A DNA stretch of 64,000 nucleotides from Anaerolineaceae bacterium (GTDB taxonomy: Bacteria > Chloroflexota > Anaerolineae > Anaerolineales > Anaerolineaceae): the NCBI GenBank assembly GCA_016927865.1, contig JAFGLU010000008.1, positions 1 through 64,000 of the forward strand, written 5' to 3'. The notes beneath the pieces are model-generated. The model saw only the letters and a list, made by a program, of their open reading frames with translations, did no database searches and had not been told where the DNA came from. Below are positions 4,203-55,053 of the stretch, in pieces (position 1 is the stretch's first letter; every line of letters starts with the position of its first letter). Position numbers and translations under genes: made by a program.

Positions 4203-7200
4203 TTCCCCTTAACCTCTCTTCAATGATGCGCACGGCTTCGATGGTATCTAGGAAAAAGGTCATCTGCCGCACAGGGTGGTTTTGCTGATACATTCTTTGG
4301 AAGCACTGTTGTAGGAGTGTAGGTTTATCGCCATTGAATTTTTCAATCGGAGGGACCTGATCCGATGTAAGTAAACGAGAGATGGACTTTCCAGCGTCCA
4401 AAAATTCTTCCGGGAAATAAATTTCGTAAATTAACGCATTAACCAACTGTTCGAAGTAAGCAGTCATCAACCGCCGGCGAGCCTCTTCCTCACGGTTGGA
4501 TGATTCAGGCAGCGCTTTGAGAAAGAGAACATAATCCACAAAAGTGGCCACTGCCTGCTCTTGTTCAGGTCTGGACTCTGCAATCGGGAATGGCTTCAGG
4601 TATTCTGTTTTAAACCTTAGGTAACCTCCTCGAAGGACTGTGCCCGTTTCCGCAAGGAAATACCAAAGCAAGTGGGAATTCATTAAACCAAGAAGATACT
4701 TTTCGTTTTTTACCACACCTGGTTTAAAGATAAAGCTATAAATTGTTGTTGTGTGGTAAAGACTGCCAGTTAAATCAATCGTCATTTGCGGGCCATTGCA
4801 TATATCCGGTGTCATGATCTTCACAGCTTCAAATTCGATTAAGTTCTTCGGATAAATATACGCATAGAACTGCTGCCCGTGCATTCTTCCGTGCTCGCGC
4901 TCAGCCAGAGCATTTTCGTTGCGCTCGAGATATTGCCAGCCCAATGGAAATTTCTCCCGAATAAAATTTTGCGGCATCAATTCCGCTTTGCCATTGAGAA
5001 TGCGGTAGGGAAAGATGACCACATTTTTGGCGGTCACGTTTTCATAGCGATGCACATCCTTGCCCATTAGGAAGGGTTTGACCAACCCTTTCTCTATCTC
5101 AACTTCCTCTCCCAGTTGTTTAGAGAAACACTGGTAGGTGTCTTCTTTTTCAGAAAGAATTTCGAGTACGTAGATTTTGTCGGCGCTGGTGGCAATACCC
5201 TGAAAAATCTTCCTGATCAAATCCCCTAACTGTTTAGGATGTTGTTTAATTCTTTTCAGAACAAGATTGCTGGAACCGATCGAAAAATCCCAATCTACAT
5301 TTTCACCATGACCACTTCCGATTATCTCTGGCTCTGGCAGCGATTCATGTGCATAATCCGGGTGTTCTTCCCGCCGCCGCACCGCTTGAAACACATCTTC
5401 GCCCCGTTCCAACGATTTGACTTCAATCAGGTCAAACTGATCATTTTTCCTTGCAGAAAGGAATAACAGGCAGGTATAGGTGGTGGCTTCTTCAAACACC
5501 TGCTCGGCGCCGAAACGCACAATCTGGCGCAGCGCTTTACGGTTGGTGAGTAGTTTACGCAATCCCTCGCCGAAGGCAGCCTGGAAGAATTTATGTGGGA
5601 CGATGTAGGCCAATTGCCCGTCGGTTTTCATCAATCTGTAGCCTTTTTCTATGAAGAGTGCATACAGATCGAAACTGCCCTGGGCAGATTTGTAATGTTC
5701 ACGATAATAAGGCATAAATTCAGGTTGAGTTTGTTGGATCATTTGCACCCGCATATAAGGCGGGTTCCCAATGACCACATCAAAGCCTTCTGGAAGCCAG
5801 AACATCCATTCGGGATCAAAAAAATCTGCGAAGGTGTTTTGATCGTAGGGGTTCCACTTTGCCAATTTCTCTGTGGTTTCCAGGAGGAAGTGTTCCTTTT
5901 TTAAGAGCTCGCCGATATCTTTGCGAATTTTTTCATCCTCCTCTCTATATTTTCGCTTTGTAGCAGGGGTGCGGGCTGCAAAGTGCTTTTTCCGGATTTT
6001 GGCCAGCTCCGCCTCTTTTTGGTCTAATTCCATGTTTCTTAATATGCTAGTTTGTTGGGGACGCTCGATACTTATCAGGGTGTTAGCGGCAACAAACCTG
6101 GTTTCCAAGTTTGGCAGGGGACGAATGTTTCGATTGGCAATCTTGTCATCGATTCTTTGGTCAACCACCAAAGAAATGAAAAAGCGCAGTTTAGAGATTT
6201 GCACTGCAATAGGTTGAATATCCACACCATAAATACAGTTCTGGATCAAGAAAAGCTTTCGTCCATAATTATCTAGATTTTTTTCAAAAGTTTCTTCGAT
6301 TTCCAATAAACGTGTACGGCGTTCTTCGGTATCACCAATAGTGTAAGCTTCTGACGTTTCTTGAAGCGCGCGCTCTTTTTGTATCTCGCGCCATAATACA
6401 TTCTGGGGATCAAGTTTTTGAAGGATAAAAACCAACTTATGCAACATTCCCATTGGGAATGCGCCACTGCCGCACGCTGGGTCGATAACCTTAATGCTGT
6501 CAATTGCGCGCACAAGAGTATAGATTTCATCTTTTGAAAACTGGCGGGAGGTAGCATTGTATGCTAAAAGATCACGCAGGCGATCCCGGTTTTCTGACGA
6601 TTCTCCCAATTTTCCTTCGAAATATGCAAGTAAAGCTTCGTCGACCATGTAATCGACTATTTCGCGAGGTGTGTAGAACGACCCGGTCTGTTTACGAGCT
6701 GTTGTACCAGTCTCTGGATTAAATGAAGCCAACAAGTTCTCGAACACTTTCCCTAATAGTTCTGGATCTAGAGCGATTTCCTCTTCAATTGGCGTATTTT
6801 CCTCGATCGTGAATTTGTAACTATCAAAGATATCAATAAGTCCGCGGACCTTATATTGCTTGTTGCGGGTATCGTAAATTTCATTCAGGTCGATGTTTTT
6901 TTCTGGTGAGAAGAACAACCAATCTGGAATAACGATCTCGTTATCTGAACGGTCAGAAAAGCCGTCCACTCTCTGCACTTTCTCGGAATCGTTCTTACCA
7001 GTTTTATCAAGACACTCGAACAGGCCACCATTTAAGAAAGGGATAGTCTGGAATAGATCAAGCGCCTGATCCGGGTTTTTAAAGTAGCTCTTATATCGAT
7101 AAAGGTTGGTGATATTGTAATTCTGCCCGTCTTTTCGAAAATCGCGTCTATCCCGTTTTCCGGGCGAGTTCATCTCTTGGTTTAGAGTGGCAAAAAATAA

Positions 7201-8136
7201 ATTCTGGAGGATAGCTTTGTAATATGTGCTGCCGGAATTATCCTTGTAGTTGAGAATTTCCGCTAACTTGCGTTGGCTAAACAAATCGTCTGGAATCAGC
7301 CCTTTTTCTCTGAGGAACCATACGAATATTAACCGAGTGATCAGGCGAATCACACCAATTGCATTCCGTTGTTCGGTGTTATTGCCGGCATCCTTCGGGA
7401 AAGTTACGTTTGTCACAGCCCAGAAGTACCAGTTGGCCACCTCGCGGTAGAACTTCTTGTTCAGTTCGGAGGTATCCAGCGCCTTTTGCCAGGCGTTGTG
7501 CAGGTCGACGAAATTATGGAAGCGGGTGTCTTTCTGCAGTTGGTTGAGGGAAAGGTCGAAGAGAATTTCGATGTGTGCGCGCAAAGGGGACGCGTGGTTG
7601 ATCCCTTTGATCAAAGTTACTTTCTCGAGGACATCCTTGTTTTCTTCGCGCTTGTTCAGGCGCCGGTTGATGAGCGAAAGTGTCAGGGATGATCCGTGCT
7701 GGAAGAGAACCATCACCGGCATAGCAAAAAACTTGTTGATTTCGCGGGTGATGTCGGCGAATTTGGAGCGGGAGTATTCGGCCTGTTTGAGCTTGATGGT
7801 GATGAACAAGTACGACTCGATGATCTGGTTATCCACTCGGGTCGTGCCGTCAAAGACAAACCGTGCTTGCGCAAGTTCGCGAATATCATCGCCCGTCAAC
7901 TGGAACAGGATATCGACTGAAACCCAATCGGCCACCAGAGCTTTCTCACGGTTGATCTGAGCAATAGGCGCGTGAATGTCGGCCAGCCCATCGAAGGTGT
8001 TGGGCTCCAGGACCACTTCTCGCCCGCTGCGGTATCCGAGCGCGTTGAGGAAAGCGATGCCGTTTTCGCGCAAGTTTCCTTTGGAAAAACGGGCTAAAGT
8101 CTGTTCAATGTGGCGTTTGGTTTCGAGTTCATTCAT
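4183..8136 (-). CDS. Eco57I-like N6-adenine DNA methylase with specificity region (Hma-type)
   Basis: Large 1317-aa protein. The N-terminal ~200 residues are of unclear fold, possibly nuclease-like. FYTPREIVDYMV at about 487 and DPACGSGAF at 552-560 form the AdoMet-binding motif, and NPPY at 791-794 is the catalytic motif of N6-adenine methylases. The C-terminal third (IVPHKFFQAAFGEGLRKLL onward) resembles a TaqI/Eco57I-type target-recognition region. It starts 1 nt after the helicase stop and overlaps the ATPase start. In the Hma-like arrangement it probably marks host DNA for self/non-self discrimination; that is inferred. BREX PglX is a similar family, but no other BREX genes are present. 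Confidence 0.88.
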   Translation of the reverse strand: MNELETKRHIEQTLARFSKGNLRENGIAFLNALGYRSGREVVLEPNTFDGLADIHAPIAQINREKALVADWVSVDILFQLTGDDIRELAQARFVFDGTTRVDNQIIESYLFITIKLKQAEYSRSKFADITREINKFFAMPVMVLFQHGSSLTLSLINRRLNKREENKDVLEKVTLIKGINHASPLRAHIEILFDLSLNQLQKDTRFHNFVDLHNAWQKALDTSELNKKFYREVANWYFWAVTNVTFPKDAGNNTEQRNAIGVIRLITRLIFVWFLREKGLIPDDLFSQRKLAEILNYKDNSGSTYYKAILQNLFFATLNQEMNSPGKRDRRDFRKDGQNYNITNLYRYKSYFKNPDQALDLFQTIPFLNGGLFECLDKTGKNDSEKVQRVDGFSDRSDNEIVIPDWLFFSPEKNIDLNEIYDTRNKQYKVRGLIDIFDSYKFTIEENTPIEEEIALDPELLGKVFENLLASFNPETGTTARKQTGSFYTPREIVDYMVDEALLAYFEGKLGESSENRDRLRDLLAYNATSRQFSKDEIYTLVRAIDSIKVIDPACGSGAFPMGMLHKLVFILQKLDPQNVLWREIQKERALQETSEAYTIGDTEERRTRLLEIEETFEKNLDNYGRKLFLIQNCIYGVDIQPIAVQISKLRFFISLVVDQRIDDKIANRNIRPLPNLETRFVAANTLISIERPQQTSILRNMELDQKEAELAKIRKKHFAARTPATKRKYREEDEKIRKDIGELLKKEHFLLETTEKLAKWNPYDQNTFADFFDPEWMFWLPEGFDVVIGNPPYMRVQMIQQTQPEFMPYYREHYKSAQGSFDLYALFIEKGYRLMKTDGQLAYIVPHKFFQAAFGEGLRKLLTNRKALRQIVRFGAEQVFEEATTYTCLLFLSARKNDQFDLIEVKSLERGEDVFQAVRRREEHPDYAHESLPEPEIIGSGHGENVDWDFSIGSSNLVLKRIKQHPKQLGDLIRKIFQGIATSADKIYVLEILSEKEDTYQCFSKQLGEEVEIEKGLVKPFLMGKDVHRYENVTAKNVVIFPYRILNGKAELMPQNFIREKFPLGWQYLERNENALAEREHGRMHGQQFYAYIYPKNLIEFEAVKIMTPDICNGPQMTIDLTGSLYHTTTIYSFIFKPGVVKNEKYLLGLMNSHLLWYFLAETGTVLRGGYLRFKTEYLKPFPIAESRPEQEQAVATFVDYVLFLKALPESSNREEEARRRLMTAYFEQLVNALIYEIYFPEEFLDAGKSISRLLTSDQVPPIEKFNGDKPTLLQQCFQRMYQQNHPVRQMTFFLDTIEAVRIIEERLRGNENHQN

Positions 8137-8137
8137 A

Positions 8138-11100
8138 TCAGCAAATGATTAACCAGGTGATCAATTCAAAATCGGTGGATTTGGATACTTGTTTAGATTT
8201 ATCAGGGATGACCGCCCCGCGATCGGCAATCAGGTTGCCCACCACGCGCTTCTTGAAGGTTTTTTCAATCCAGAAAATGGATTTTTCAAGCAACTCGGAA
8301 TAATGGGACACATCGTCCCCGTTTTGGGTGGCCTCATTGAACTGCGCGCACAGGGTCTCAATGGCGGCGGTTTTCCCAACGCACAAGGCCCGGAAGACTT
8401 CCAGGATTTGCTTGGGCTGCGTGAAGCCCAGGCGCACTGAGCCATCCTCCAGGACATATACCAAAAAATAGGGCTGCAGCGGGTTGACTGCCTCGCTGCC
8501 GGTCGTATCGCCTTTCTGCTTGAGGCAGAAGATCACCCCCGGCCGGATGATCGGGTATTGGGGATCGGTTGGGACGATGGCATAAAGCCCCAGAGGCGCA
8601 TCATTCAGTAGTTGCCGGTTGGCCTCGATATAGCGGCTCAACTCAGCCCGGAAATCGTCCAGGGTGAAATCGGTGAGCGAAACCACTTCATTGAAGTCTT
8701 CCAGGTCCAGCACTTCTTCTCGCAGACGCTTCAGTTGCTTGTCGCGGTACTTCAGGTCTTCTTTAATCAATTCCTGCAATTCGTCGTTGCTCAGCAGGTT
8801 GTCCTCGTTGGTGGCGGCAATATCCACCAGCGCCATGCGCGCTTCCACCCGATTTTTCAGGGAGATATATTTATCCAGGTCCTGGGTTGGCCAGAAGTTG
8901 ACCAACTGGACAGCCGAATTGATACTGCCAATGCGGTCGATGCGGCCAAAGCGCTGGATGACGCGCACCGGGTTCCAGTGAATGTCGTAGTTGATCAACA
9001 TGTCGCAATCTTGCAGGTTCTGCCCTTCGCTGATGCAGTCGGTGGCGATGAGCAGGTCGATCTCTTGGTCCTGGGGCATACTACGCATCTTGGCGCGGTT
9101 TTTGGCGTGGGGCGAGAAGTTGATCAGAATCTGGTTAAACTCATTCTTGCCAAAGCTGGTTTTGTTTTCGGTCGAGCCGCCTGAGACCATGGCGATATGA
9201 ATGCCTAACTCTTGGGTCGCCCATGCATGCAGGGCCTTGTAGAGATAATCGGCGGTGTCGGCAAAGGCGGTGAACACCAGCAGTTTGCGGTTGGGCCGCC
9301 CCGATTTGTCGGTGCTGGGGTGCTTGACCTTGTTCTCGATCAGCTTTTTCAGCTCGGCCAACTTAGCATCCCGTGCTGCGGTAATCTCGCGGGCCGATAA
9401 TTCCAACTTGTGAAGCTGGTCGCGGTCATGGCGCAAATCTTTGAGCCAGCGGTCCAGTTCAATGTGCGCCATCTTGAATTTGAGCTTGCCTACTTCCAGG
9501 GCATCTTGCAACTCTTCGTCGTCCACGTCGGTAATCATCAGGTCTTCAAAATCCAGGTCGGGGTTTTCGGCCTGGAAGCGTTGAAAACGCTGGATTCGGT
9601 CCATTAGACCATCAATCTTGTCAATCGTGCGCCGCATGGTGATGTCAAAGGAATGGACGGAGCTCTCCAGTCGTTTGAGGAAGTTGACCTTCATCATGCC
9701 GATCAAGAAATGCTCGCGTACGCGCTGGGAGAACTTGTCTGTCAGCCTTCGATCGAACAGGTTGGGCTGCTCTTTGGCGTACTTGACATCATATTTCGAG
9801 CGGTGCTCATCGATGAGATACTCAGAAGGGTTGAAGAGCGAAAGCCTGTAATTGGAGATGTCTTCGTTGAGCGTGTCGTAGGACATGAATTCGCCGGCCA
9901 GATCGATGTCCGGGAAGACGGAGATCGGTTTGAGCCGCGCGGGGAACCCTCCCAAGAGGGCAATATTATCTTGGTAGTATTTTTGGATATGCTTTCGCGA
10001 GCGGGCAATTGTCAGCGCGTCCAGCAGTTTGAAGAACGCCGAGCTGAGCTGCTGGAGCAAATCCTTGGTTTTGTGCTCTGGCGAGCTCTTGGCCCATTCG
10101 GTGAAGGTGCGCTGTGCCGCGGCCAAGGTGTCTTTAATACTGCTGATACCTAGAGGGCCATCGAACGCATCGTCACAGTTCTCGGTCAGGAAATAGATTT
10201 GGTTGCGCAAGTCCTTCAGGTCGTTGTTCACCGGTGTGGCCGAGAGGAGCAGCACTTTGGTCTTCACGCCCTGCTGGATGATATCTTCCATCAGGCGCTG
10301 GTATCGGCTGCGGCGAACCACGTTGCCTTCTTCGTCTCTTTTGCCAGGAGTGTTGTTGCGGAAATTATGCGACTCGTCGATGACCACAAAATCGTAGTTT
10401 CCCCAATTGATGTTGGCCAGATCGATATCCCCCGTGCGGCCTTTCTCTCGGCTCAAATCCGTGTGAGAAAGCACAGTGTAATTGAACCGGTCGCGCAGGA
10501 AGGGGTTGAGCTCGCTGTTGTTCTGCGCCTGATACACCGTCCAGTTTTCACGCAGCTTTTTGGGGCACAGCACCAGAACCCGATCGTTACGCAGTTCGAA
10601 ATACTTGATGACTGCCAGGGCTTCGTAGGTTTTTCCCAGGCCGACGCTGTCGGCCAGAATACAGCCGTTATAGGCCAGGATTTTGTTGATCGCGCCTTTT
10701 ACGCCATCTTGCTGAAATTCAAAAAGGGCTTTCCAGATATCTGTGTCGACGATCTGATTCTTGATATCCGACAAACCGCCTTTATCCTGGTCAGATAAGA
10801 ATTGCTCAAAGAGGTGGAATAAGGTTTTGAAGTAGATGAACTCAGGCGAGTTGTCTTGGTAGAGCTGCGCAAGATAAGACAGCACGTCTGCCTTCACATC
10901 TTCAACCAGCTCTTCTGAATTCCAAAGCTCCTCGAACCAGGCTTTCAAATCGCGCTGGTCGCGGTTGCTGTCGACAATCAGGTTCAGCTCGATATTGTTG
11001 TTGTGGTTTGCCATGCCCAGGCCACTGACCGTGAAGTTTGAGCTGCCTAAAATGGCCTCTTCCACGCCACCGTTGGCGATGTGGTACATCTTTCCATGCA

Positions 11101-11557
11101 GCAGGTTGGCCTGACGGACAGAGCGGATATCGACCTTTTGCTCAATCCATTCGGCGCATTCTCGAGCAACGCGGCGCTGTTCGAGGCGGTTGGTCAGCTT
11201 CAACCCATCGTCCTCGATCTTGTAGGCTTTTTTGTCGGTCTTGTCGGGGTCCAGCGACTTGACGAAGCGCGGCTCGCCGAACAAGAAGCGGAGGTGTTCA
11301 ATCACATCCAGTTTGTCTTTCAACGCTTCATAGGCATAAATCGTAAAGTATGCGGAGACAATCGAGAGCACGGATCCGTCTTTGATTTTTTCGGTGAGAA
11401 AATCGGCGACGCTGCCACGTTTGAAGTTGTCACGGATGCCTGAGGTGGGAATGGGAGGAGGGAACAAATCCAAAACAATCTCCTGTTGGTTAGAACGATC
11501 ATTTCTCCGGCCAACAACCGGGAGAAGGAGGGTACTCTCTATTACCGAGCATCCCAT
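8138..11557 (-). CDS. PLD-domain SNF2-type helicase (Hma-type)
   Basis: 1139 aa. Residues 154-175 (HGKMYHI ... GSSNFT) form a phospholipase-D-like motif. A superfamily-2 helicase follows: SVGLGKT at 304-310, DESH at 394-397, SATPVNN at 439-445. The second lobe has ISEGQNLQ (842-849) and QRFGRIDRIG (868-877). It is the first gene of a three-gene run with methylase and ATPase. The start is uncertain: the listed ATG has no clear ribosome site, whereas a TTG about 28 codons in (LDLFPPPIP) has CAGGAG 6 nt upstream. DISARM DrmD is also a SNF2 helicase, but drmA/drmB are absent here. Confidence 0.88.
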   Translation of the reverse strand: MGCSVIESTLLLPVVGRRNDRSNQQEIVLDLFPPPIPTSGIRDNFKRGSVADFLTEKIKDGSVLSIVSAYFTIYAYEALKDKLDVIEHLRFLFGEPRFVKSLDPDKTDKKAYKIEDDGLKLTNRLEQRRVARECAEWIEQKVDIRSVRQANLLHGKMYHIANGGVEEAILGSSNFTVSGLGMANHNNNIELNLIVDSNRDQRDLKAWFEELWNSEELVEDVKADVLSYLAQLYQDNSPEFIYFKTLFHLFEQFLSDQDKGGLSDIKNQIVDTDIWKALFEFQQDGVKGAINKILAYNGCILADSVGLGKTYEALAVIKYFELRNDRVLVLCPKKLRENWTVYQAQNNSELNPFLRDRFNYTVLSHTDLSREKGRTGDIDLANINWGNYDFVVIDESHNFRNNTPGKRDEEGNVVRRSRYQRLMEDIIQQGVKTKVLLLSATPVNNDLKDLRNQIYFLTENCDDAFDGPLGISSIKDTLAAAQRTFTEWAKSSPEHKTKDLLQQLSSAFFKLLDALTIARSRKHIQKYYQDNIALLGGFPARLKPISVFPDIDLAGEFMSYDTLNEDISNYRLSLFNPSEYLIDEHRSKYDVKYAKEQPNLFDRRLTDKFSQRVREHFLIGMMKVNFLKRLESSVHSFDITMRRTIDKIDGLMDRIQRFQRFQAENPDLDFEDLMITDVDDEELQDALEVGKLKFKMAHIELDRWLKDLRHDRDQLHKLELSAREITAARDAKLAELKKLIENKVKHPSTDKSGRPNRKLLVFTAFADTADYLYKALHAWATQELGIHIAMVSGGSTENKTSFGKNEFNQILINFSPHAKNRAKMRSMPQDQEIDLLIATDCISEGQNLQDCDMLINYDIHWNPVRVIQRFGRIDRIGSINSAVQLVNFWPTQDLDKYISLKNRVEARMALVDIAATNEDNLLSNDELQELIKEDLKYRDKQLKRLREEVLDLEDFNEVVSLTDFTLDDFRAELSRYIEANRQLLNDAPLGLYAIVPTDPQYPIIRPGVIFCLKQKGDTTGSEAVNPLQPYFLVYVLEDGSVRLGFTQPKQILEVFRALCVGKTAAIETLCAQFNEATQNGDDVSHYSELLEKSIFWIEKTFKKRVVGNLIADRGAVIPDKSKQVSKSTDFELITWLIIC

Positions 11558-12413: not shown

Positions 12414-12890
12414 TTACTTCAATAACTGCTGCGCCCACTCGAGCGCCTTTTGCGCCATCGGCAGCAGCTTCTGCACCGCCTCGCCGGCGCCCACCAGCCC
12501 CGTCAGCGTGGCCACCACGGCCTCCAGCTTGGGCAGCACCAGGTGCTTCTTCGGTTCGGGCTTGGCCAGTTGTTTCTCAACATCCATGACCTCCCCCTCG
12601 ATGACCTCAACGGTCTCCTCATCCAACCCGGATTGGGGCAGGGCTTCGCGGAAATCCTTCAACGCCTCCAGCACCTGCTCGATCTTGACCGTCTGATTGG
12701 TCACCACGTTGCCCTTCCCGGTCACGAAGGTGTTGCCCGCAGCGTCCCCGCGGATCGTGACGCTGTTGACGTCCCCGTGAACGACCTTATCCCGCCCGAC
12801 AAAGTCACCCCCGCCGGTGTTGACGTTCCCACCGATGTATGCGCCATCCACATGGGTCGGCTTTTGATTCTTGTCTTTTTTCTGCGCCAT
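12414..12890 (-). CDS. Small protein with GGxVxTGGGxFxGRD motif and helical C-terminus
   Basis: Start at MAQKKDKNQ because GAGGAGGGAAG precedes it; the frame extends 15 codons further. Residues ~16-50 (AYIGGNVNTGGGDFVGRD) carry a glycine-rich turn motif that also occurs in the NACHT protein encoded directly upstream. The C-terminal ~80 residues are amphipathic helices (LEAVVATLTGLVGAGEAVQK). Such motifs occur in bacterial conflict proteins next to STAND ATPases (family knowledge, held loosely). A partner or effector recruited by the NACHT protein through the shared module is my inference. Confidence 0.6.
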   Translation of the reverse strand: MAQKKDKNQKPTHVDGAYIGGNVNTGGGDFVGRDKVVHGDVNSVTIRGDAAGNTFVTGKGNVVTNQTVKIEQVLEALKDFREALPQSGLDEETVEVIEGEVMDVEKQLAKPEPKKHLVLPKLEAVVATLTGLVGAGEAVQKLLPMAQKALEWAQQLLK

Positions 12891-12964
12891 ACTTCCCTCC
12901 TCATAATTCATTTGCTGTTCTCTGAATTGTAGCATGCATTAGGTATAGAGATTGTTTCCGGTTG

Positions 12965-13050: not shown

Positions 13051-13114
13051 CGGGTAGGGCCAGGAACCAGGATTCGGAACACAGAATCCAGGAATCAGGA
13101 TCCAGAATCCGCCA
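13051..13114. repeat. 64-bp block after the variable region, copy 1
   Basis: About 90 percent identical to 16049-16112 by eye, in the same orientation and at the same place relative to the NACHT 3' ends. Made of short alternations of GATTC, CCAGG and their complements. In this copy it encodes the last residues and stop codon of the NACHT gene; in the other copy it lies just after the stop. Confidence 0.75.
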
Positions 13115-15866
13115 GGGAGAGAACAAGCCGAAAACCGATATAGTAGTAGAAGTCGTCGGGGCCGCTCCTGAAGCGGAAGGCACAGCGCGCGAGCCTAACA
13201 GCGCTGCGCCACGAGCCGCCGCGCAACACATTCCTAGAGCCTTCTTTACTGCGCGTCCACTCAAACACATTCCCACTCATGTCCCAGGCTCCAGACAGGC
13301 TGACTCCTTGCGGATAAGTGCACACCGCGGTTGTGCCTAAGCCGCCCGACTCGCGCGTGTTCGCAAAGCGCTGATCAAACGCATCTCCCCAGGGAAATTC
13401 GCGCCCGTCTGTCCCGCGCGCGGCTTTCTCCCACTCCTGCTCGGTGGGCAGGCGCGCGATACACCCCTCGGGCAGTTGTCCAGCCTGGCGCATCTGTTCC
13501 GACCGCCAGGCGGCATAGGCTTCGGCTTCATACCAGCTCACGCTCACCACCGGGAAGATAGGGTTGTTCCAGGTCGAATCATCCCAGTAGCCAGGCTGAG
13601 TTCTTTGTTCTTGTTCTTTCCACTCCCACCCGGCTTTGCTCCAACAGCGGTGTGTCTTGTGCCCGCCGGCGGCGATGAATTCGCTATACTGGGCATTGGT
13701 AACCGGGAATTGGGCGATCCAATAGGCATACGGGATATTGTGCGGCGTTTTATCGTCGCCATACAGAAATGTCCCCGCCGGGATTTCGATGAACTGCTCC
13801 AATCCTTCCGGCTTCCAGCCCAACGCCCCTAGCGAGAAGCCGGCGCTTCTACGTAAACGTTTTTCCACATCCGCGTTTTGCATGGTCGTGATCAACGCTT
13901 CGATGACTTTTTCCAGGCTGGGCTTGCCAATCCCCACGGCGCGGGAATCGCAGGCCGCTTCGCCCGCCAGGGCCACCGCCGCGCCGGGCTCGCCAGGCTG
14001 CTCGGTCACCAGCTTTTCCAGCACTTTTCCGGCCACTCCCGGCATTTGCTGGATCAGGCCCACATAGCCCACCGCCAGGAGGGCCACCTCGCGCCAGGCA
14101 GGGTCGCCCACATGGTCTTTGATTTGCTCAAAGATCACATCGGGCTGCCCTTCGGCCTGCAAGGCCATGCCCACCCCCGCCAGGTATTCCTCAAAGGTCA
14201 GGTGGATGAAGCCGTATTCGCTCGGGCCGCGCTCCAGCAGCAGAGCGGTGTGCTCGTGCACGTCTGCCAGAAAATCGCGGGCTTTCTTCTCCGCGTTTTC
14301 TTCGCCGCGGTTTTCAAACAACCTCTTCAACTCACGCAGCAGATCTTCGCGCTTGACCAGCCCCACCCCGGGGCTGACGGTGTGCATCCACAAGGCCAGC
14401 GGGGCCAGCAGCCGCACCGTCTCAACCACATCCAGGTCGCGCCCCACCGCCCGCCCGGTCATGCTGCGCGCGCGGTTCCAGGTGGACAGCATCGTGCGCA
14501 CGTACTGCTCGTACAGTTCCACGCGCCGCTCCGGCAGGGTCACGCCCTGGCGCTTCATCACCGCCAGGATGGTGAGCAGCAGCGGGTTGGACGCCAGCCG
14601 CCGGACACCTTCGCTGCGGTTAACGGCATCGATCAACTCTTTGCTTTCTTTGTCGGCATCGAACCTGGCGGCTGCCCCCTCTCCCTGGGCCTGCTGCTCC
14701 AAAATGGCGGTCCATTTTTGGGCGAACTCGCCGATCTCCTCGTCGTCAAAATCTACCAGGGTGGCTTCCACCAACCCCTCCGCCGCCAGGCGCGCATCGC
14801 GATAGCCGACCACCCGGCTGGTGAGGACGAACTTATTGCCCTTGTTCTTGTGAACAGTGAAGTAGTTGACCACCCGCTCGACGACCGTGTGGCGCATGTC
14901 CAGGTTCTTGACTTCGTCCAACCCATCGAGAAGTACCAGCGCGTTGCCATCCTTCAAAGCAGCGCGCAGCATCTCGCCCACGGGCCAATCCTGGCAGGTC
15001 TGGCAAAAGTACTCTTCAATGAACTGGTCCAGGCGCATCTCAGCTTTCTCGAGCTGGTTGGCGTACGCCGCCAGCGGAATTAACACCGGCAGCTGCCCTC
15101 CCAGGCCCAAGGCTTCCCCTTCTCCCAGGGCGCACTTCACCGCCAAAAATTTGAGAAAAGTGCTCTTGCCCGCGCCGGGATCGCCCAGCAAGATCAGGCC
15201 GCCGTTCTCGCCCAGCAGTTCGACAACCGGCTGCGGTTGAGAATACTTCAACGGCTCTTCCTCATTCGCCTTCAACTTCCGCCCTGCCAATCGCACTTCG
15301 GCGGTCCAGGTTTCTCCACCTTTGGGCAGTTCTCGCCTGGCCTTCAGCGGCACGTACAGGCCCATGAGCGGTACGCGCATTTCGATGGTGTCGCTGGGGC
15401 CAAAGCCCTTGAAGCTCAAGAAGCGGTAGCGTTCGGCCACAAACGCCAGGTAGGCTTGTTGGGTTTGGGCAGCCGACTCGGCGGGCGGCCTGGCGGGCGG
15501 GGGAGTCGATCCGGTTTGGATTGTGACCGGGCCATTTACTTGGCCGAAAACCACTGAGTTATCCCCTGCTTGGGTCACATCATCCCGTCCGGTGAATTTG
15601 CCCCCGCCGGTGTTTACATCACCGCCAATATACGTTCCCTCAGCACGGATCGAGGCAGCAGCAGGAGTGCTCTTCTGGAACAGCTTGAACCACCCCAGGA
15701 TGCCTGAGACAAGGAAGAAGACGATCGACACCAGGGCTTCAGCGCCTTGAATCAGATCGGAATTCGGCGCGATCCATTTTGTCAGCGGCTCCAACCAGAA
15801 GATGGCCGTGCCCCCGACGATCAAGATAAAAAGAATGAGTACGATCCATGGCAATTTGGCTTTCAT
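13095..15866 (-). CDS. Membrane-anchored NACHT ATPase with FGE-sulfatase/C-lectin-fold C-terminus
   Basis: 923 aa. Two hydrophobic segments lie at ~5-28 and ~41-63, then a glycine-rich motif GTYIGGDVNTGGGKFTGRD at 77-95. The NACHT module has P-loop GDPGAGKST (228-236), Walker B LVLLDGLDEV (310-319) and sensor-like FVLTSR (~346-351). A helical region follows. Residues ~692-916 form an FGE-like domain (IPAGTFLYGD, RLPTEQEWEKAARG, WDMSGNVFEW, RGGSW). FGE-like domains of STAND ATPases are thought to act as ligand sensors, and the fold is used by DGR variable proteins. GGAGGCGGG precedes the start. Likely a membrane-tethered NLR-like immune sensor. Confidence 0.85.
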   Translation of the reverse strand: MKAKLPWIVLILFILIVGGTAIFWLEPLTKWIAPNSDLIQGAEALVSIVFFLVSGILGWFKLFQKSTPAAASIRAEGTYIGGDVNTGGGKFTGRDDVTQAGDNSVVFGQVNGPVTIQTGSTPPPARPPAESAAQTQQAYLAFVAERYRFLSFKGFGPSDTIEMRVPLMGLYVPLKARRELPKGGETWTAEVRLAGRKLKANEEEPLKYSQPQPVVELLGENGGLILLGDPGAGKSTFLKFLAVKCALGEGEALGLGGQLPVLIPLAAYANQLEKAEMRLDQFIEEYFCQTCQDWPVGEMLRAALKDGNALVLLDGLDEVKNLDMRHTVVERVVNYFTVHKNKGNKFVLTSRVVGYRDARLAAEGLVEATLVDFDDEEIGEFAQKWTAILEQQAQGEGAAARFDADKESKELIDAVNRSEGVRRLASNPLLLTILAVMKRQGVTLPERRVELYEQYVRTMLSTWNRARSMTGRAVGRDLDVVETVRLLAPLALWMHTVSPGVGLVKREDLLRELKRLFENRGEENAEKKARDFLADVHEHTALLLERGPSEYGFIHLTFEEYLAGVGMALQAEGQPDVIFEQIKDHVGDPAWREVALLAVGYVGLIQQMPGVAGKVLEKLVTEQPGEPGAAVALAGEAACDSRAVGIGKPSLEKVIEALITTMQNADVEKRLRRSAGFSLGALGWKPEGLEQFIEIPAGTFLYGDDKTPHNIPYAYWIAQFPVTNAQYSEFIAAGGHKTHRCWSKAGWEWKEQEQRTQPGYWDDSTWNNPIFPVVSVSWYEAEAYAAWRSEQMRQAGQLPEGCIARLPTEQEWEKAARGTDGREFPWGDAFDQRFANTRESGGLGTTAVCTYPQGVSLSGAWDMSGNVFEWTRSKEGSRNVLRGGSWRSAVRLARCAFRFRSGPDDFYYYIGFRLVLSLADSGS
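13116..13223 (-). other. Candidate DGR variable region of the first NACHT gene
   Basis: Codons from RGGSW to VLS at the end of the FGE domain. Residues differing from the second NACHT protein cluster at positions encoded here by NNC/NNT (CGC, AGC, GCT, CTC, TTC, TTC, GGC, TAC, TAC, TAT). Intervening framework codons (GGC TCG TGG, CGC TGT GC, CCC GAC GAC TTC, ATC GGT) are identical. This is what adenine mutagenesis of AAY template codons would leave. No reverse transcriptase or template is in the window. Confidence 0.5.
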
Positions 15867-15992
15867 CCCGCCTCCACGTTTTTCGTGCTTCCCGCTTGAT
15901 CAGGGAAATCTTATTCGTTCACCGATTATCTCTTGACATGATTCTACTCGTAATTCTTGGCTAGACTTCTCCAGGCTTTATCTGTTCTGTAA

Positions 15993-16020
15993 ATTCGCGT
16001 CCATTCGTGTTATTCGTGGA
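15993..16020. repeat. ATTCGTG-rich intergenic repeat, copy 2
   Basis: Second copy of the ATTCGTG-word repeat seen at 12965-12992, again about 30-60 bp downstream of the 64-bp block. Marks a duplicated 3' flank. Confidence 0.6.
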
Positions 16021-16048
16021 AAAAATCTTCTCTTATTCCCCAATCCCC

Positions 16049-16112
16049 CGGGTAGGGCCAGGAATCAGGATTCGGAATTCAGAATCCAGGAATCAGAACC
16101 CAGAATCCGCCA
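16049..16112. repeat. 64-bp block after the variable region, copy 2
   Basis: Differs from copy 1 at about six positions. Located immediately beyond the stop codon of the second NACHT gene. Its position is where DGR target genes carry the homing-initiation site and downstream structure; that reading is inference. Confidence 0.75.
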
Positions 16113-16116
16113 CACT

Positions 16117-19100
16117 TCAAGTGCCCAGTGCGGGGGAGAGAACAAGCCGAATACCGATGTCGCTGCGGAAGTCGTCGGGGTCGCTCCAATCGCGGACTGC
16201 ACAGCGTGTGTTCCTCTGAATATCGTCCCACGAGCCGCCACGCAATACTCGGATCGCATTTTCACTCACGTGCAGGCGGTGCGATTGGCGAATATAGGGA
16301 TATGGGCGGTAACCGCTCAGCATCCATTCACTCACGTTCCCCGAAAGCTCCATGATCTCTTCGGGTGTTGCGCCGTGGGGGTACATACCGACCGGGCTGG
16401 AGTGGCTGATATTGCTGTTGCCAATATTAGCACTTTCCTCGTCCCAGTCTGCGTTGCCCCAGGGATACCTGCGCCTGTCCGCCCCCCGCGCGGCTTTCTC
16501 CCACTCCGCCTCCGTCGGCAGCCGAGCAACGATCTTTTGTGCTGCCAAGTCACGCCATAAGCGTTTGGCATCTGGATTCTCCGCTCTAGCTATAAGCTGA
16601 TCGCGAAGCATCCCGAAGGGGCCGCTGAGAGCTGACAGCTTCTGATTCACCCACTTTGCATACGCCATTGCCTCAAACCAACTCACGCCTATCACCGGGC
16701 GGGTGGGAGTAGCAAGTTGATCTTGCCACCAGTACGGTGCGCCGCGCTGCTTCAACTTGCGCACTGTCAGCCAATCGCGGAAAATCCTGTCTTCTACTTT
16801 GCTGTCATATTTTCCGGTGCGCCAATCCCAACCGGTCTGGCTCCACCATTCCTGGTTTTCATAACCCTGCTCCTGCACGAAATGGGCATATTGCCCCACC
16901 GTTACCGGGTAACGTGCCATCCAGTAATCGTAAGAGATCAAGAGCGGCTCGGGATTGCCATACTCGTTATCAAAAGCGCCTTCCTCCCCTTCCCGGCTGC
17001 CCATGATAAACAGCCCGGCGGAAATGCGTACGAACCCCAGACTTTCCTCCGGCTTTCCGCGGAACAGCGCCGGCAGGCCCATAAGGTTGGGGGCAAAGCG
17101 CGGGTCGCCCAGCTTGCCCAAGATGTCGCCCGCTTCAGCCCGCTCGCGGGCCGGCAGGCGGCCCTCTTCCACCAGGCGTAATAACCAGCGGCGCAGGCGC
17201 TTGACCAGCACGCCGGTTTGTTCGTCGCCCGCGGCCCGCTCCTGCAAGCGCAGCTCCAGCAGCGCCGTGCCTGCCAGCGCCGCCCGCCGCCAATGCGAGT
17301 CCTCCACTTGCTCGAGCTCCTCGGGCGTGCCCGGAACGAGCGCTTGCAAGGTGCTCAAGGCCTGTCCCTCGCCACCCTGGCGCACCTTGCCAATGGCCAA
17401 CAGGATCACCTCGCGCCACCATTCCAGCGAGTTTCCCGCCAGTACGCAAATACGAGTGTGGAAATCGGCCTGGTTGGTCAGATGGCAGCCTGCCAGGTAT
17501 TCCTGGAAGGAGCGATGGGGGAAGGAATAGATACCCTTCTCCCGAGCAACTAACAGTCCCGAGCGGCGGTCAAGATATTCCACTACCACATCTGTTTTCA
17601 GATCAACGGGGGTGGCTTTGCCAAGGATTTCCAGGATTGTACCCAACGGGATATCCGCAGGGGCATCTTCGCCCCGGCTGTCTTCGTCCAGCAGCCCTTG
17701 TTTTTCGTGCACTTCATAAGCCAGGCGCGCCATGCCCGAGCGCAGGTCGCGCTCATCCATCCCCAGCACACGCAAAATGCCATAATCGACCAGGGGCTTT
17801 CCGTCCGGGTCTTCGGTGATGCTCTGGCGCTGCCATTGGGTCAGCAACAACTGTACCGATTGCTCATACAGGTCGGCGCGGTCTTCGGGCAGGCGCTTTT
17901 GGCTGGCGTTCAGCCCGGCGATCAAGGTCAGGAGCAGCGGGCGAGAGGCCAAATCGGCCAGGTAACGGCGCTGCCACATCACAGCCAGCAAACCGTTGGC
18001 TCGCGCTTTGGTCTCAATCTCGTCCCATTGCAAAACCGAACGGGCGGCTTTATACCATTGGCGCACGAAACCCTCCACCTGCTCTTTGCTGAAGGGCGCC
18101 AGCGCCAGGATATCGAACCTGGGCAACTGCCAGCGGGGGTCGGCGTAAGCGTAGGGCCGGGCGGTGAGAATGGCACGGGAAGATTTGGGGATTTCACTCA
18201 GGAAGGACTGGATTGCTTGCAGTAGGCAGGCACGCCGCCGCCCGGCTTCGGGTACCTCATCCAGGCCGTCCAGTAGCAGCAAGAGCGGACCTTTGTCCAT
18301 ACGCGCCTGAAGGCCGATCAGAGCCCACTTGGCGGCTTCCTGGCCGAGCAGATCCACCATGTGCGCCTGGATGGTCTCCCACAACATGCCGGACGTGCCG
18401 CATTTGGCTTCTAGTGGGATATGCCGAGCCGCTTTGCGCAATACAATGCGCAGCGGCAAGTACCCCCGGATTGCCTTGGGCAGTTTTTCGGTCTCGCCGG
18501 TCAAGATGGACTGCGCCAGGCGGTAGGTGAGGTAGTTGACGAAGCTGGTTTTGCCCGACCCGGCATCCCCCAGCAAAGCCAGTCGCTTATTCTTGGCCTC
18601 GCAGACCACCTCCATCAACGGCGCGCGGCTTTCACCCTGACCAAGCGCCAGGCGGCGTCCAAACTGGCGGTGGTCTTCCGTTCTATCGTTGGGAGCGCTG
18701 ATCACGTCCAGGTCGGTGTACACATCCGCCAGGCGCAGGGTGTCCTGCTGCAAGGGGGAAGGCGCCAGGCGCGGGTCGATCACACCCAGGGGTAGGTGGC
18801 TGCACTCTTCCGCCAGCGCGCGCAGGTAAGCGCGTAGGAACAGGTCGCCGATCTGCTCGCCGGAGACTTCCAGGCGGTTGCCTTCGCCCACGACGATGAT
18901 CATACCGCTGGCATTGCCCTCAATGGTAACACTGCGATTGACAATGCCCTGGATGAAGGGGTCCAGGCGGGTAGAGGATACCAGTTGCGAGTTGCCCTGG
19001 GCGAGTAGTTGCTGTTCAAGCCCAGCATACTCAGCTCTCAGTGCAGATATTTTGGTGTCTACGATCTCATTACCCAGGTCGGAGCGCAGATTCTCATAGC

Positions 19101-19155
19101 TGCTGATCTTCCTGGTGATTTCGTCCAAACGATTGCGTAAGTCGTCCATGCTCAT
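16117..19155 (-). CDS. NACHT ATPase with coiled-coil N-terminus and FGE-sulfatase/C-lectin-fold C-terminus
   Basis: Start taken at MSMDDLRNRL (GGGGGC upstream); the frame extends 18 codons further. Residues 1-55 are coiled coil, followed by a short beta-like stretch (VTIEGNASGMIIVVGEGNRLEV). P-loop GDAGSGKT is at ~196-203 and Walker B LLLLDGLDEV at ~292-301, then ILTARPYAY. A helical region leads to an FGE-like domain from ~730 (RISAGLFIMGSREG, VIGVSWFEAMAYAKW, RLPTEAEWEKAARG, MELSGNVSEW, RVLRGGSW). Unlike its neighbour it has no membrane segment. The two proteins share architecture but little sequence outside the ATPase and the C-terminal tip. Likely an NLR-like sensor. Confidence 0.85.
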   Translation of the reverse strand: MSMDDLRNRLDEITRKISSYENLRSDLGNEIVDTKISALRAEYAGLEQQLLAQGNSQLVSSTRLDPFIQGIVNRSVTIEGNASGMIIVVGEGNRLEVSGEQIGDLFLRAYLRALAEECSHLPLGVIDPRLAPSPLQQDTLRLADVYTDLDVISAPNDRTEDHRQFGRRLALGQGESRAPLMEVVCEAKNKRLALLGDAGSGKTSFVNYLTYRLAQSILTGETEKLPKAIRGYLPLRIVLRKAARHIPLEAKCGTSGMLWETIQAHMVDLLGQEAAKWALIGLQARMDKGPLLLLLDGLDEVPEAGRRRACLLQAIQSFLSEIPKSSRAILTARPYAYADPRWQLPRFDILALAPFSKEQVEGFVRQWYKAARSVLQWDEIETKARANGLLAVMWQRRYLADLASRPLLLTLIAGLNASQKRLPEDRADLYEQSVQLLLTQWQRQSITEDPDGKPLVDYGILRVLGMDERDLRSGMARLAYEVHEKQGLLDEDSRGEDAPADIPLGTILEILGKATPVDLKTDVVVEYLDRRSGLLVAREKGIYSFPHRSFQEYLAGCHLTNQADFHTRICVLAGNSLEWWREVILLAIGKVRQGGEGQALSTLQALVPGTPEELEQVEDSHWRRAALAGTALLELRLQERAAGDEQTGVLVKRLRRWLLRLVEEGRLPARERAEAGDILGKLGDPRFAPNLMGLPALFRGKPEESLGFVRISAGLFIMGSREGEEGAFDNEYGNPEPLLISYDYWMARYPVTVGQYAHFVQEQGYENQEWWSQTGWDWRTGKYDSKVEDRIFRDWLTVRKLKQRGAPYWWQDQLATPTRPVIGVSWFEAMAYAKWVNQKLSALSGPFGMLRDQLIARAENPDAKRLWRDLAAQKIVARLPTEAEWEKAARGADRRRYPWGNADWDEESANIGNSNISHSSPVGMYPHGATPEEIMELSGNVSEWMLSGYRPYPYIRQSHRLHVSENAIRVLRGGSWDDIQRNTRCAVRDWSDPDDFRSDIGIRLVLSPALGT
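16135..16242 (-). other. Candidate DGR variable region of the second NACHT gene
   Basis: Counterpart of the first variable region. Differing codons are again mostly NNC/NNT (GAC, GAT, ATT, AAC, GTC, GAT, GAC, CGC, AGC, GAC), while the flanking framework is conserved to the nucleotide over runs such as CCCGACGACTTC and CGGCTTGTTCTCTCC. Confidence 0.5.
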
Positions 19156-19254
19156 GCCCCCGGTGAAAGTTATATGATTGATTGTAGCCAAATCCAAGGG
19201 GCGGGGCAAGAAAAACGAATTGATTGTTGTGTGAGGATAGCGAAGTTCTACTTA

Positions 19255-19333: not shown

Positions 19334-20488
19334 GTGTGGGTGTATGCGCGAGACCCATACGACCTCATTTTCTGGTACATGGTGAAAACCATTGCCGGCG
19401 AGTCGGGCGAGTGTTTCATCAACACCGAGCAGCTGGCCGAGCTGTGCATGATGTCTGAGGGCAAGATCGCAGACTGCCGCAAGTATTGGCTGTCCACACG
19501 CCTGCTCACGGGCAAGCTGGAGAAGGTCGACAATTCCCCCGAAGGCTACAAGGTGTGGCATTTGACTGATCCCGACGTGTGGGACCAGAACAACCGCTGG
19601 GGAACCGAGTACAGCACGCTCCAATCCAGGGTTGACCTGAAGCGTGACCAACGGCTCAACGGGAACGGGTGGAAGTCTGAGAACCAGCGCATGTGTCCCA
19701 GGTGCGGAGAGATGTTCACTATCACCGGCCCACAATCGGTTCGATGCGAGAACTGCTCGAGAGCGCACAATATCGAGAAGAACCAGGTGTGGCGCAAACT
19801 CGGGACAAAGACTGTCAACGTTCCGGGCGCAAGTTGCACGATTGTTGGGTGCGAAAACACCAATCTCGAATATCACCTCCCCTCCCCCAAGGAAGAGCCG
19901 GTGATATTGTGTGTTGATCACCACAACGAGCTGCATCGGTTGGAAGCCGAGAATGACCGAGCGGCTTATGACATGAACCGATCGGAAAATCCACCGAGCG
20001 GCTTAACACATGAATCGAGCGGCTTATCACATGAATCAAGCGGCTTATCAGGTGAATCGAGCGGCTTATCACGTGTGGTTAAAGAATATCCATTTAAGAA
20101 TATCCAAGAAGAAAATCCAGGAAGAATGGCTGCGCCAGGGTCCATTCTGGAGCTTTTCTATCGACAATCTTCTTCAGGGGAGGCTGATAACTTCCATGAG
20201 GTTTCTAATCGGTGGCGCATGGTTATGGCCGAGGCGGGAGTCCGGATAGAGGATATTCAAACACCCATGATGGTGTATCCAAAGAACGGGTCGCTCCCCT
20301 CTTATCAATGGCCCGACGACGATTGGATTAGCATCAGCCACGATTGGGACCTCAATGTCTTCAAGGATGATAACGTCCTGCGCATGGCCATCTACCCCGT
20401 TGTGGGCGGGCAGACCAAAACCGAGAAAGCCGCCTGGTCTTACCCCGAACAACAATCTCACTTAACTCCTACACATAGGAGCATTTAA
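19334..20488 (+). CDS. Replication-initiator-like winged-helix protein, probably 5'-truncated
   Basis: Listed from a GTG at VWVYARDPYDLIFWYMVKTI. The frame is open without a better start through the upstream inverted repeat to a stop at 19253-19255, and the sequence before the GTG (TIVPRV) reads as if the domain continued. The N-terminal ~80 residues look like a winged helix (EQLAELCMMSEGKIADCRKY), as in phage/plasmid initiators. A Cys4 zinc finger (CPRCGEMF ... CENC) and a second Cys/His cluster (CTIVGCEN ... CVDHH) follow. The middle encodes SSGLSHE repeats whose DNA looks like iterons. The last codons and the TAA come from a palindrome. A role in starting element replication is inferred. 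Confidence 0.6.
   Translation: MWVYARDPYDLIFWYMVKTIAGESGECFINTEQLAELCMMSEGKIADCRKYWLSTRLLTGKLEKVDNSPEGYKVWHLTDPDVWDQNNRWGTEYSTLQSRVDLKRDQRLNGNGWKSENQRMCPRCGEMFTITGPQSVRCENCSRAHNIEKNQVWRKLGTKTVNVPGASCTIVGCENTNLEYHLPSPKEEPVILCVDHHNELHRLEAENDRAAYDMNRSENPPSGLTHESSGLSHESSGLSGESSGLSRVVKEYPFKNIQEENPGRMAAPGSILELFYRQSSSGEADNFHEVSNRWRMVMAEAGVRIEDIQTPMMVYPKNGSLPSYQWPDDDWISISHDWDLNVFKDDNVLRMAIYPVVGGQTKTEKAAWSYPEQQSHLTPTHRSI
19958..20078. repeat. Five iteron-like 21-bp direct repeats (candidate replication origin)
   Basis: Units start at 19958, 19995, 20016, 20037 and 20058, with consensus beginning CGAGCGGCTTATCACATGAA. The last four are head-to-tail; the first is set 37 bp upstream and so is translated in another frame (RAAYDMN against SGLSHES). 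Conservation across frames says the DNA, not the peptide, is kept. AT-rich sequence follows (20079-20120). Repeats inside an initiator gene followed by AT-rich DNA is the layout of the lambda O origin. Confidence 0.65.
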
Positions 20489-20506
20489 CTCCTACGTAGG
20501 AGTTAA
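20462..20506. repeat. Double palindrome, copy 1 (inverted orientation)
   Basis: A degenerate palindrome followed by a perfect one with half-site TTAACTCCTAC. Reverse complement of the arrangement at 21368-21412 apart from a few bases. It overlaps the 3' end of the preceding gene and supplies its TAA stop. Confidence 0.85.
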
Positions 20507-20521
20507 AACAGGAGTCCAAAA

Positions 20522-21111: not shown

Positions 21112-21371
21112 TGCCAGAGATCACAAATGAGTACATCGAAGAACTGATCGAGGCGACTGAGAAGGATGGCGGCGAGTCTGCCGCCATCCTCAGATCGCTC
21201 TTGCTGGAGCTGTTGGAGCTGAGAAAGACGACCAATGACCTGGCGCAGCTGAGCAAGAGATATCCGAGGAAGATTGTAGACATGACGATTGGCCTACAAG
21301 GGTTTGGTACTTTGCCACAATGGGCATATAGCGTTCAAGCTATTTTGGAGCGTAAGAATGGAGGGATTTAA
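21111..21371 (+). CDS. Hypothetical element protein (86 aa)
   Basis: ATG chosen over an upstream TTG because GGAGG lies 4-5 nt before it and it overlaps the preceding stop (TGATG). Helical N-terminal half (EYIEELIEATEKDGGESAAI). The final ATT-TAA is formed by copy 2 of the double palindrome. No recognisable domain. Confidence 0.6.
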   Translation: MPEITNEYIEELIEATEKDGGESAAILRSLLLELLELRKTTNDLAQLSKRYPRKIVDMTIGLQGFGTLPQWAYSVQAILERKNGGI

Positions 21372-21412
21372 CTCCTACGTAGGAGTTAAACACTCCTGTA
21401 TGTAGGAGTTAA
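21368..21412. repeat. Double palindrome, copy 2
   Basis: Perfect palindrome with half-site TTAACTCCTAC, then a degenerate second palindrome (CACTCC ... GTAGGAGTTAA). Provides the stop codon of the preceding gene. Confidence 0.9.
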
Positions 21413-21450
21413 GAGAGGGAGACAGTAGAGATTGAATCAGGAGTGAGTAG

Positions 21451-26343: not shown

Positions 26344-26716
26344 TGTCGGCATTTTACTTGGTGAATGGATTGGCGGCCTGAGAATTTATTCGGTGGTTAT
26401 TGAAGTCATTAACTCCTACGTAGGAGTTAAGCACTCCCATGTGTTGGAGTTAATCCGAAACACTGGAGTGGTTTTGAATAGTCATTTACATCAGATAATC
26501 AAATTGGTCTTTTCGTTTGCTTTCCATTGGTTGGCTAAATCAGGGGGTGTTAAAGGTGATTTTCAAGGCAATTTAGGTTGCCGTCAAAGTTTTCGCTTGT
26601 CAGGTTTAGAGAATTTTGACTTCTCAGTACTCAGCAATGAAAGTGTTTGAGGCGAGTTCAGATGCTTATAGTAGTCTGAGATACGACAGGCTTATTTCAA
26701 TCAAAACATGTGCCGG
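26344..26716. other. Intergenic region between integrase and TPR gene
   Basis: About 370 bp between convergent genes. Holds copy 3 of the double palindrome; otherwise no ORF, tRNA fragment or direct repeat to the left edge of the element could be recognised. Confidence 0.4.
26409..26453. repeat. Double palindrome, copy 3
   Basis: Same order as copy 2: perfect palindrome, then the degenerate partner (CACTCC ... TTGGAGTTAA). Located about 65 bp after the integrase stop, between convergent genes, where it may serve as a two-way terminator or mark the right end of the element. Confidence 0.9.
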
Positions 26717-53338: not shown

Positions 53339-53603
53339 TTTATTGGCACAGAAGAGAGTCCCTCTCAACAGGAGCAACTCTTATGCCAGCACGGCGATCA
53401 ATTGCTGATAAAGTTGTTTAGAATACTTTCTTGAAGAAGGTCCCAGTATTTCCGGTTCTCTGGGAGTTGCCACGGCAATTCCCAATGACCCGCATTTCCT
53501 ACTGTCATGATTATACTTTAAGTTGTTTGATGCGTCAGTTGATTTCACCTCTGGCAGCGTCACTATTGACAAAGTGTAACTGCTCGCAGAAAGCTGAAAA
53601 AGA
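53339..53603. other. Intergenic region upstream of the GGDEF gene
   Basis: About 265 bp with no credible gene. Probably holds the GGDEF promoter; adjoining it are the first GAA-tip palindrome and the terminator of the S1-protein gene. Confidence 0.35.
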
Positions 53604-53658
53604 CCAGAATTTGAGGGTAGTGTGGGTGCGAAGCACCCACACTACCCTCAAATTCTGG
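53604..53658. repeat. GAA-tip palindrome 1
   Basis: Perfect 26-bp arms around GAA. Outer part CCAGAATTTGAG, inner part GGGTGC-GAA-GCACCC, variable middle GGTAGTGT. Intergenic, no T-run. Confidence 0.95.
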
Positions 53659-53696
53659 AGCTTTTCTCAACCTCGGTGAGTAGATACGACAGAGCA

Positions 53697-54998: not shown

Positions 54999-55053
54999 CC
55001 CGAATTTTAGGTGATTGCGGGTGCGAAGCACCCGCAATCACCTAAAATTCGGG
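54999..55053. repeat. GAA-tip palindrome 2
   Basis: Perfect 26-bp arms around GAA. Outer part CCCGAATTTTAG, inner GGGTGC-GAA-GCACCC, variable middle GTGATTGC. Lies in the divergent gap before the Rel-type gene. Confidence 0.95.

Follow-up and report, generated by a model that had tools for sequence, protein, structure and literature searches.

Two adjacent NACHT-FGE genes end in tips that, as comparison with related sequences supports, are DGR-type variable regions (VRs). Most likely these are genuine VRs of a pair of NLR-like sensors, now orphan and frozen, that have outlived their DGR. The whole stretch of DNA analysed, referred to below as the window, comprises bases 1-64000 (64,000 nucleotides) of contig C23 of its own genome (G000), an 84.5%-complete assembly of 3.97 Mb in 147 contigs. 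Relatives are labelled G, loci L, and contigs C. An earlier note on this DNA had interpreted the two tips as DGR-type VRs on NACHT-FGE proteins and had supposed that a DGR encoded elsewhere serves them in trans. We retain the first part of this interpretation but not present-day service in trans, as neither a reverse transcriptase (RT) nor a template was found.

Both genes are located on the minus strand. Gene 1 (ORF at 13095..15866) encodes a protein of 923 aa, and gene 2 (ORF at 16117..19209) a protein of 1030 aa. The NACHT NTPase domain (PF05729) and the FGE-sulfatase domain (PF03781) are above the Pfam cut-offs in both products, with E-values of 4.7e-9 and 1.8e-45 for gene 1 and 8.2e-13 and 1.7e-44 for gene 2. 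The FGE domain, which has the C-lectin fold, occupies 13122..13799 on the minus strand in gene 1 (Pfam, structure model, and Foldseek) and 16141..17034 on the minus strand in gene 2 (domain search). A structure model of the gene-1 FGE domain (13098-13814) has a pLDDT of 94, and Foldseek matched it to FGE-fold structures and to the Treponema DGR variable protein 2y3c (TMq 0.69). According to hydropathy analysis, the gene 1 product starts with two hydrophobic segments, which are followed by a Gly-rich motif, the NACHT domain, and the FGE domain; the first 220 residues of the gene 2 product contain no strongly hydrophobic segment. An N-terminal effector domain was sought in both proteins: the first 164 residues of gene 1 gave no Pfam match even at E <= 10, and the part of gene 2 upstream of NACHT gave none at E <= 0.001. 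PADLOC had no match for either gene. Outside the tips, the two proteins diverge widely: 81 of 191 residues are identical in the upstream part of the FGE domain, and for the NACHT region the figure is 117 of 374.

The tips are C-terminal segments of 108 nt each on the minus strand: RGGSW...GFRLVLS of gene 1 (VR1, 13116..13223) and RGGSW...GIRLVLS of gene 2 (VR2, 16135..16242). Their coordinates had been given correctly in the earlier note. VR1 and VR2 have different residues at 14 of 36 codons, and their nucleotide differences are distributed over codon positions 1, 2, and 3 as 13, 9, and 7. The framework between the variable codons is nearly identical: synonymous differences were found in 2 of 21 conserved degenerate codons of the tip and in 40 of 71 such codons of the upstream FGE part (Fisher p = 1.2e-4). 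Both codons have the form NNY in 11 of the 14 variable tip codons versus 141 of the 551 differing codons upstream (p = 5e-5). Thus the differences of NNC/NNT form within an almost nucleotide-identical framework, on which the original proposal was built, are real.

The near-identity of the gene pair extends past the tips: the 64-nt flank downstream of VR1 (13051..13114, minus strand) is 92% identical to the flank of VR2 (16049..16112, minus strand). This identity, along with the seven differences at third codon positions and the lack of an RT or template in the genome, would fit an explanation that involves no DGR, namely gene conversion of the 3' ends of paralogs combined with diversifying selection on a ligand-binding surface. 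The NNY bias of the variable codons speaks against such ordinary divergence, as does the location of the differences relative to templates of related loci.

To find such loci, the VR1 DNA was searched against 400 genomes of the order. At least 36 genomes, including the own genome, were matched; up to two candidates per genome were scored, and for the own genome the scoring was repeated in full (11 of 11 candidates). Several of the matches are templates of the same architecture, RGGSWNNNRNNARCAYRNRNxPDNFNNNIGFRLVLS. Eight templates, hand-picked among those with the RC[AS] framework, were used in a test of adenine sites; 24 distinct templates were counted later. VR1 and VR2 differ at 18 of the 28 sites where A is the majority letter in the eight templates and at 11 of the 77 other sites (p = 1.5e-6). 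This bias, taken together with an orthologous gene pair that has a template between its genes (see below), bears out the reading of the tips as DGR-type VRs. At 23 of the 29 differing sites at least one of the eight templates has A, and at the remaining six none does. The earlier note had regarded two outcomes as adverse to its proposal: the lack of a DGR RT in the genome and differences outside the A positions of a template. The results are adverse in part: no RT was found, and the six sites are of the latter kind. On both grounds the description of the tips as hypermutable is unproven, and it is less likely than their being frozen.

The orthologous pair is located in G380, a genome of a different family of the same order. 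By "ortholog" we mean full-length similarity and, for this locus (L094) only, also gene order. The L094 contig holds orthologs of both genes with their order kept (50% identity over 962 aa to gene 1 and 42% over 1046 aa to gene 2), and according to Pfam both are NACHT-FGE proteins. Between them lie a template and a bAvd gene (2.7e-21). Relative to their own template, one L094 tip is changed at 11 of 33 A sites and 0 of 68 other sites, and the second tip at 12 of 33 and 1 of 68. The only non-A change over the 101 sites compared is a TGT to TGA replacement right after one tip core, near positions 2750-2857 of L094. A pair of orthologs with a template and almost exclusively A differences already disfavours ordinary divergence, and the flanks after both L094 VRs are also similar to each other, as they are in the window. 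We therefore consider an origin of the tips without a DGR to be quite improbable.

The ancestral state of the window locus was probably the same: a template between the two genes, whose cDNA copies, randomised at adenines, would have overwritten both tips. The corresponding place in the window is the 250-nt intergenic stretch between genes 1 and 2 (15867..16116, no strand assigned). Neither a template nor Avd was seen there. The DGR-RT profile gave no match on the L094 contig; full-length DGR RTs of G380 are encoded on contigs C134 and C47, each with its own template and two tips. A 44-aa ORF in L094 resembles an RT N-terminus by eye, but Pfam gave no support.

In agreement with the earlier note, neither an RT nor a template was detected in the window. 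The DGR-RT profile found no RT remnant in the window at E <= 1, and the pattern and template-query searches agree. The genome-wide search for both components that it had suggested yielded neither in the 84.5%-complete assembly. There was no match to RVT_1, none to BPP-1 Brt at E <= 10, and none to a profile of 16 DGR-RT sequences. In the pattern search for a template, only the two tips matched without mismatch. A related template used as a query retrieved VR1 (E 4.5e-13), VR2 (9e-6), and then only short matches with E 0.06 or worse. The genome has one more FGE gene, its third (L001 on contig C124), which encodes a different protein and is not a template. An RVT_1 match was found in 38 of the 147 genomes of the family, and 10 of the 12 regions around RTs of DGR-type appearance yielded a template/variable pair with A-specific mismatches. 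Of the tip-bearing genomes besides the own one (35), 18 match the DGR-RT profile along 290 or more of its 363 positions, an observation that counts against the orphan reading; in the remaining 17, matches are partial, fragmentary, or unrelated, or there are none.

These empty searches (RVT_1, Brt, the DGR-RT profile, and the template) speak against present-day service in trans. Nevertheless, 15.5% of the genome is missing, and a DGR may be located there and be absent from the assembly by chance. Both tips would then be actively diversified in trans from one or two templates. Such an arrangement has parallels in the G380 pair, which has a template and Avd with no RT match on the contig and full-length RTs on other contigs, and in Thiohalocapsa, for which the accessible text of PMC10907252 reports trans activity at degenerate loci. 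Besides the absence of both RT and template from the assembly, this alternative has to accommodate the codon composition of the tips and the sequence that follows them.

In pairs of tips written from one template, most differences fall on the first two codon positions: the patterns are [12,11,0] in L143, [6,6,2] in L094, and [10,8,0] in L216 (only pairs with 1-44 differences were compared). The window pair has [13,9,7], and the third base also differs in 5 of its 14 variable codons, which is more than in most one-template pairs. Up to four differences at position 3 occur in L054 pairs with a common template, and the L144 pair also has seven, along with a difference in tip length. Within L054 (1518-14583), one DGR is surrounded by five FGE tips, three of them close to one template. 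A single template common to VR1 and VR2 is possible in principle, but it would require six A at third positions and four AAA codons. The 24 related templates have 0-3 third-position A each, and AAA is absent in 23 of them. Two templates could account for the third-base differences instead of decay. The low synonymous divergence of the framework (2 of 21) suggests fairly recent writing, which also counts against the orphan reading.

In template-bearing loci, 22 of 28 tips are followed by a GC-rich hairpin whose loop measures 3-4 nt; such a hairpin also occurs after 15 of 20 tips elsewhere, after 9 of 24 templates, and in 13.7% of random windows. The count leaves out duplicate tips and those whose flank is shorter than 90 nt, and the L047 VR was counted as having no template because its template starts with HGGSW and was missed by the search expression. 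Neither of the two window tips is followed by such a hairpin within 250 nt. By the criterion used, it is also missing after 6 of the 28 VRs of template-bearing loci, and both window VRs are followed by a weaker inverted repeat (6-bp stem, 8-nt loop); these observations, like the presence of the hairpin after 9 of 24 templates, count against the orphan reading. DNA folding of the flanks was not significant (z -1.57 and -0.94 for the window flanks, +0.98 and +1.46 for those of L094). Efficient retrohoming in phage BPP-1 depends on a hairpin/cruciform directly after the VR, according to the accessible text of PMC3240598. The hairpins of the related loci may be its equivalents; we word this cautiously because they lie further from the tip, at some 40 to 100 nt. 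Since template, RT, and downstream hairpin were not found here, the most likely reading is that both tips are orphans, frozen variants from a repertoire that once diversified.

Other genomes with related genes give a similar picture. An Acidobacteria MAG (G429) has a tandem NACHT-FGE pair on contig L152 (VFZS01000287.1); one of its genes shares 46% identity with gene 1 across 849 aa, and the tips have a clean [9,9,1] pattern. BLAST with one of the tips found no template in this genome. Nor was a DGR RT found: the profile matches were weak (54 bits or less), and the one readable motif, QGGVISP, is not of the DGR type. From the start of the second tip, the L152 contig continues for no more than about 500 nt, and a cis template may therefore have been lost beyond its end. 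No DGR-RT match was found in G399, which has a gene-2 ortholog and is 100% complete, or in G293, which has a gene-1 ortholog and is 93% complete. The RT-less ortholog pair in the Acidobacteria MAG suggests that DGR shedding recurs. That the three other ortholog-bearing genomes G399, G293, and G429 are also devoid of a DGR RT argues, like the missing hairpin and the unusual codon make-up of a single template, against a DGR in the unassembled part of the window genome, and overall we regard diversification in trans as rather unlikely.

Signs of RT decay occur at several loci. An RT fragment persists between tip and template in L085; therefore, RT decay is not restricted to one place. Fragments matching the DGR-RT profile are located just after FGE tips in L085 (6508-6753), L087 (6008-6286), and L099 (9614-9913), which suggests repeated RT decay. 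A broader and speculative reading, for which the chances appear low, is that paired NACHT-FGE genes form a lineage that lives systematically without its own RT. Its members would spread as bare cassettes whose tip repertoire either comes in trans from unrelated DGRs or is passed on in a frozen state, like germline-fixed immune receptors. This reading relies on the failure to find a DGR RT in G000, G399, G293, and G429 and on the G380 contig, where a template and Avd occur with no RT match.

Alternatively, horizontal transfer might have brought in bare target genes that had already lost their DGR connection, and the pair would never have diversified in the present host. Outside the own genome, the best match to gene 1 among the 147 genomes of the family is only 34% identical, the 46% ortholog pair comes from an Acidobacteria MAG, and the window pair adjoins a type IIG-like enzyme and an HKD-Snf2 helicase. 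There is no direct evidence of a transfer event, and such acquisition is a special case of the orphan reading, compatible with it, which takes up most of its share; as a separate explanation it is extremely improbable. Searches of other collections with gene 1 gave 420 PLSDB records, all below 60% identity and none spanning 80% of the gene, and two IMG/VR matches (L250 and L251) that span only the FGE part.

The neighbourhood of the pair contains defence-type genes, as a helicase and a type IIG-like methyltransferase are located further down. These are an HKD-Snf2 helicase of 1139 aa (PADLOC C3a139, 5.9e-128) and a methyltransferase of 1317 aa, at 4183-11557 of the window. Downstream of gene 1 lies a small partner gene of 173 aa (ORF at 12414..12935, minus strand) with a weak PADLOC match to PDC-M14B (1.1e-6). 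The Gly-rich motif GGxVNTGGGxFxGRD of gene 1 is repeated in it: motif comparison places GGDVNTGGGKFTGRD at 15582..15626 on the minus strand in gene 1, and the partner gene has GGNVNTGGGDFVGRD in common with it. In L094, the gene-1 ortholog is likewise followed by a homolog of the partner gene (42% identity over 116 aa). Several repeats were observed elsewhere in the window. A cluster of small genes is surrounded by TTAACTCCTACGTAGGAGTTAA-type repeats in inverted copies (20457-20507, 21367-21417, and 26409-26453), which may be a repeat of mobile or regulatory nature. There are also 21-nt repeats within an ORF (19960-20075), 63-nt tandem repeats (54592-54827), and two long palindromes, both near-perfect and related in sequence, with a spacing of 1395 nt (53596-53666 and 54999-55053).

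NLR systems that signal through matching motifs exist. The reference list of PMC10907252, in its accessible part, cites work on such signalling. By analogy, the C-lectin-fold FGE tip may bind an invader-derived ligand, and the NACHT ATPase may oligomerise as a switch. The gene 1 product would be held at the membrane, and its Gly-rich motif would pair with the same motif of the small neighbour protein and pass the signal on.

If the tips are indeed dormant, DGR fingerprints can outlive the DGR, and past diversification can still be read from orphan sensor tips. They would permit testing whether NLR-like sensors become fixed after a useful specificity has been found.

A literature search found no paper with a title about this particular locus. 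Among known systems, Treponema denticola TvpA, the protein of structure 2y3c, is like the FGE domain of gene 1 in being a DGR variable protein of the FGE/C-lectin fold. Unlike the window proteins, it is not known to be fused to a NACHT ATPase. The Bordetella phage BPP-1 DGR (NC_005357; Mtd, Brt) is the prototype of adenine-directed retrohoming; it differs from the window in its phage tail target and its complete cassette in cis. FGE/FGS domains in conflict systems have been tied to DGRs whose templates are located close by or at other places in the genome (PMC7159879, accessible text). Closer counterparts appear in the accessible text of PMC10907252, which describes DGRs that have two targets, both of them combining a central NACHT or nSTAND with a CLec domain, and also degenerate loci without key machinery and diversification in trans. 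As far as that text goes, the window pair is of this published kind, paired NACHT/C-lectin targets, here with no detectable DGR. It resembles the STAND/NACHT-CLec pairs of clade 5D, e.g., DGR 3 of Thiohalocapsa PB-PSB1, by its targets alone: two adjacent proteins with a central NACHT and a C-terminal C-lectin carrying the VR. Full DGRs are present elsewhere in the Thiohalocapsa PB-PSB1 genome, whereas neither RT nor template was found in that of the window. A further close counterpart is L094 of G380. It differs from the window by the template and Avd between the genes and by 11-bp hairpins after both VRs, none of which was found in the window; in both loci the two orthologous genes stand in one and the same order, and the small Gly-motif gene comes after them.
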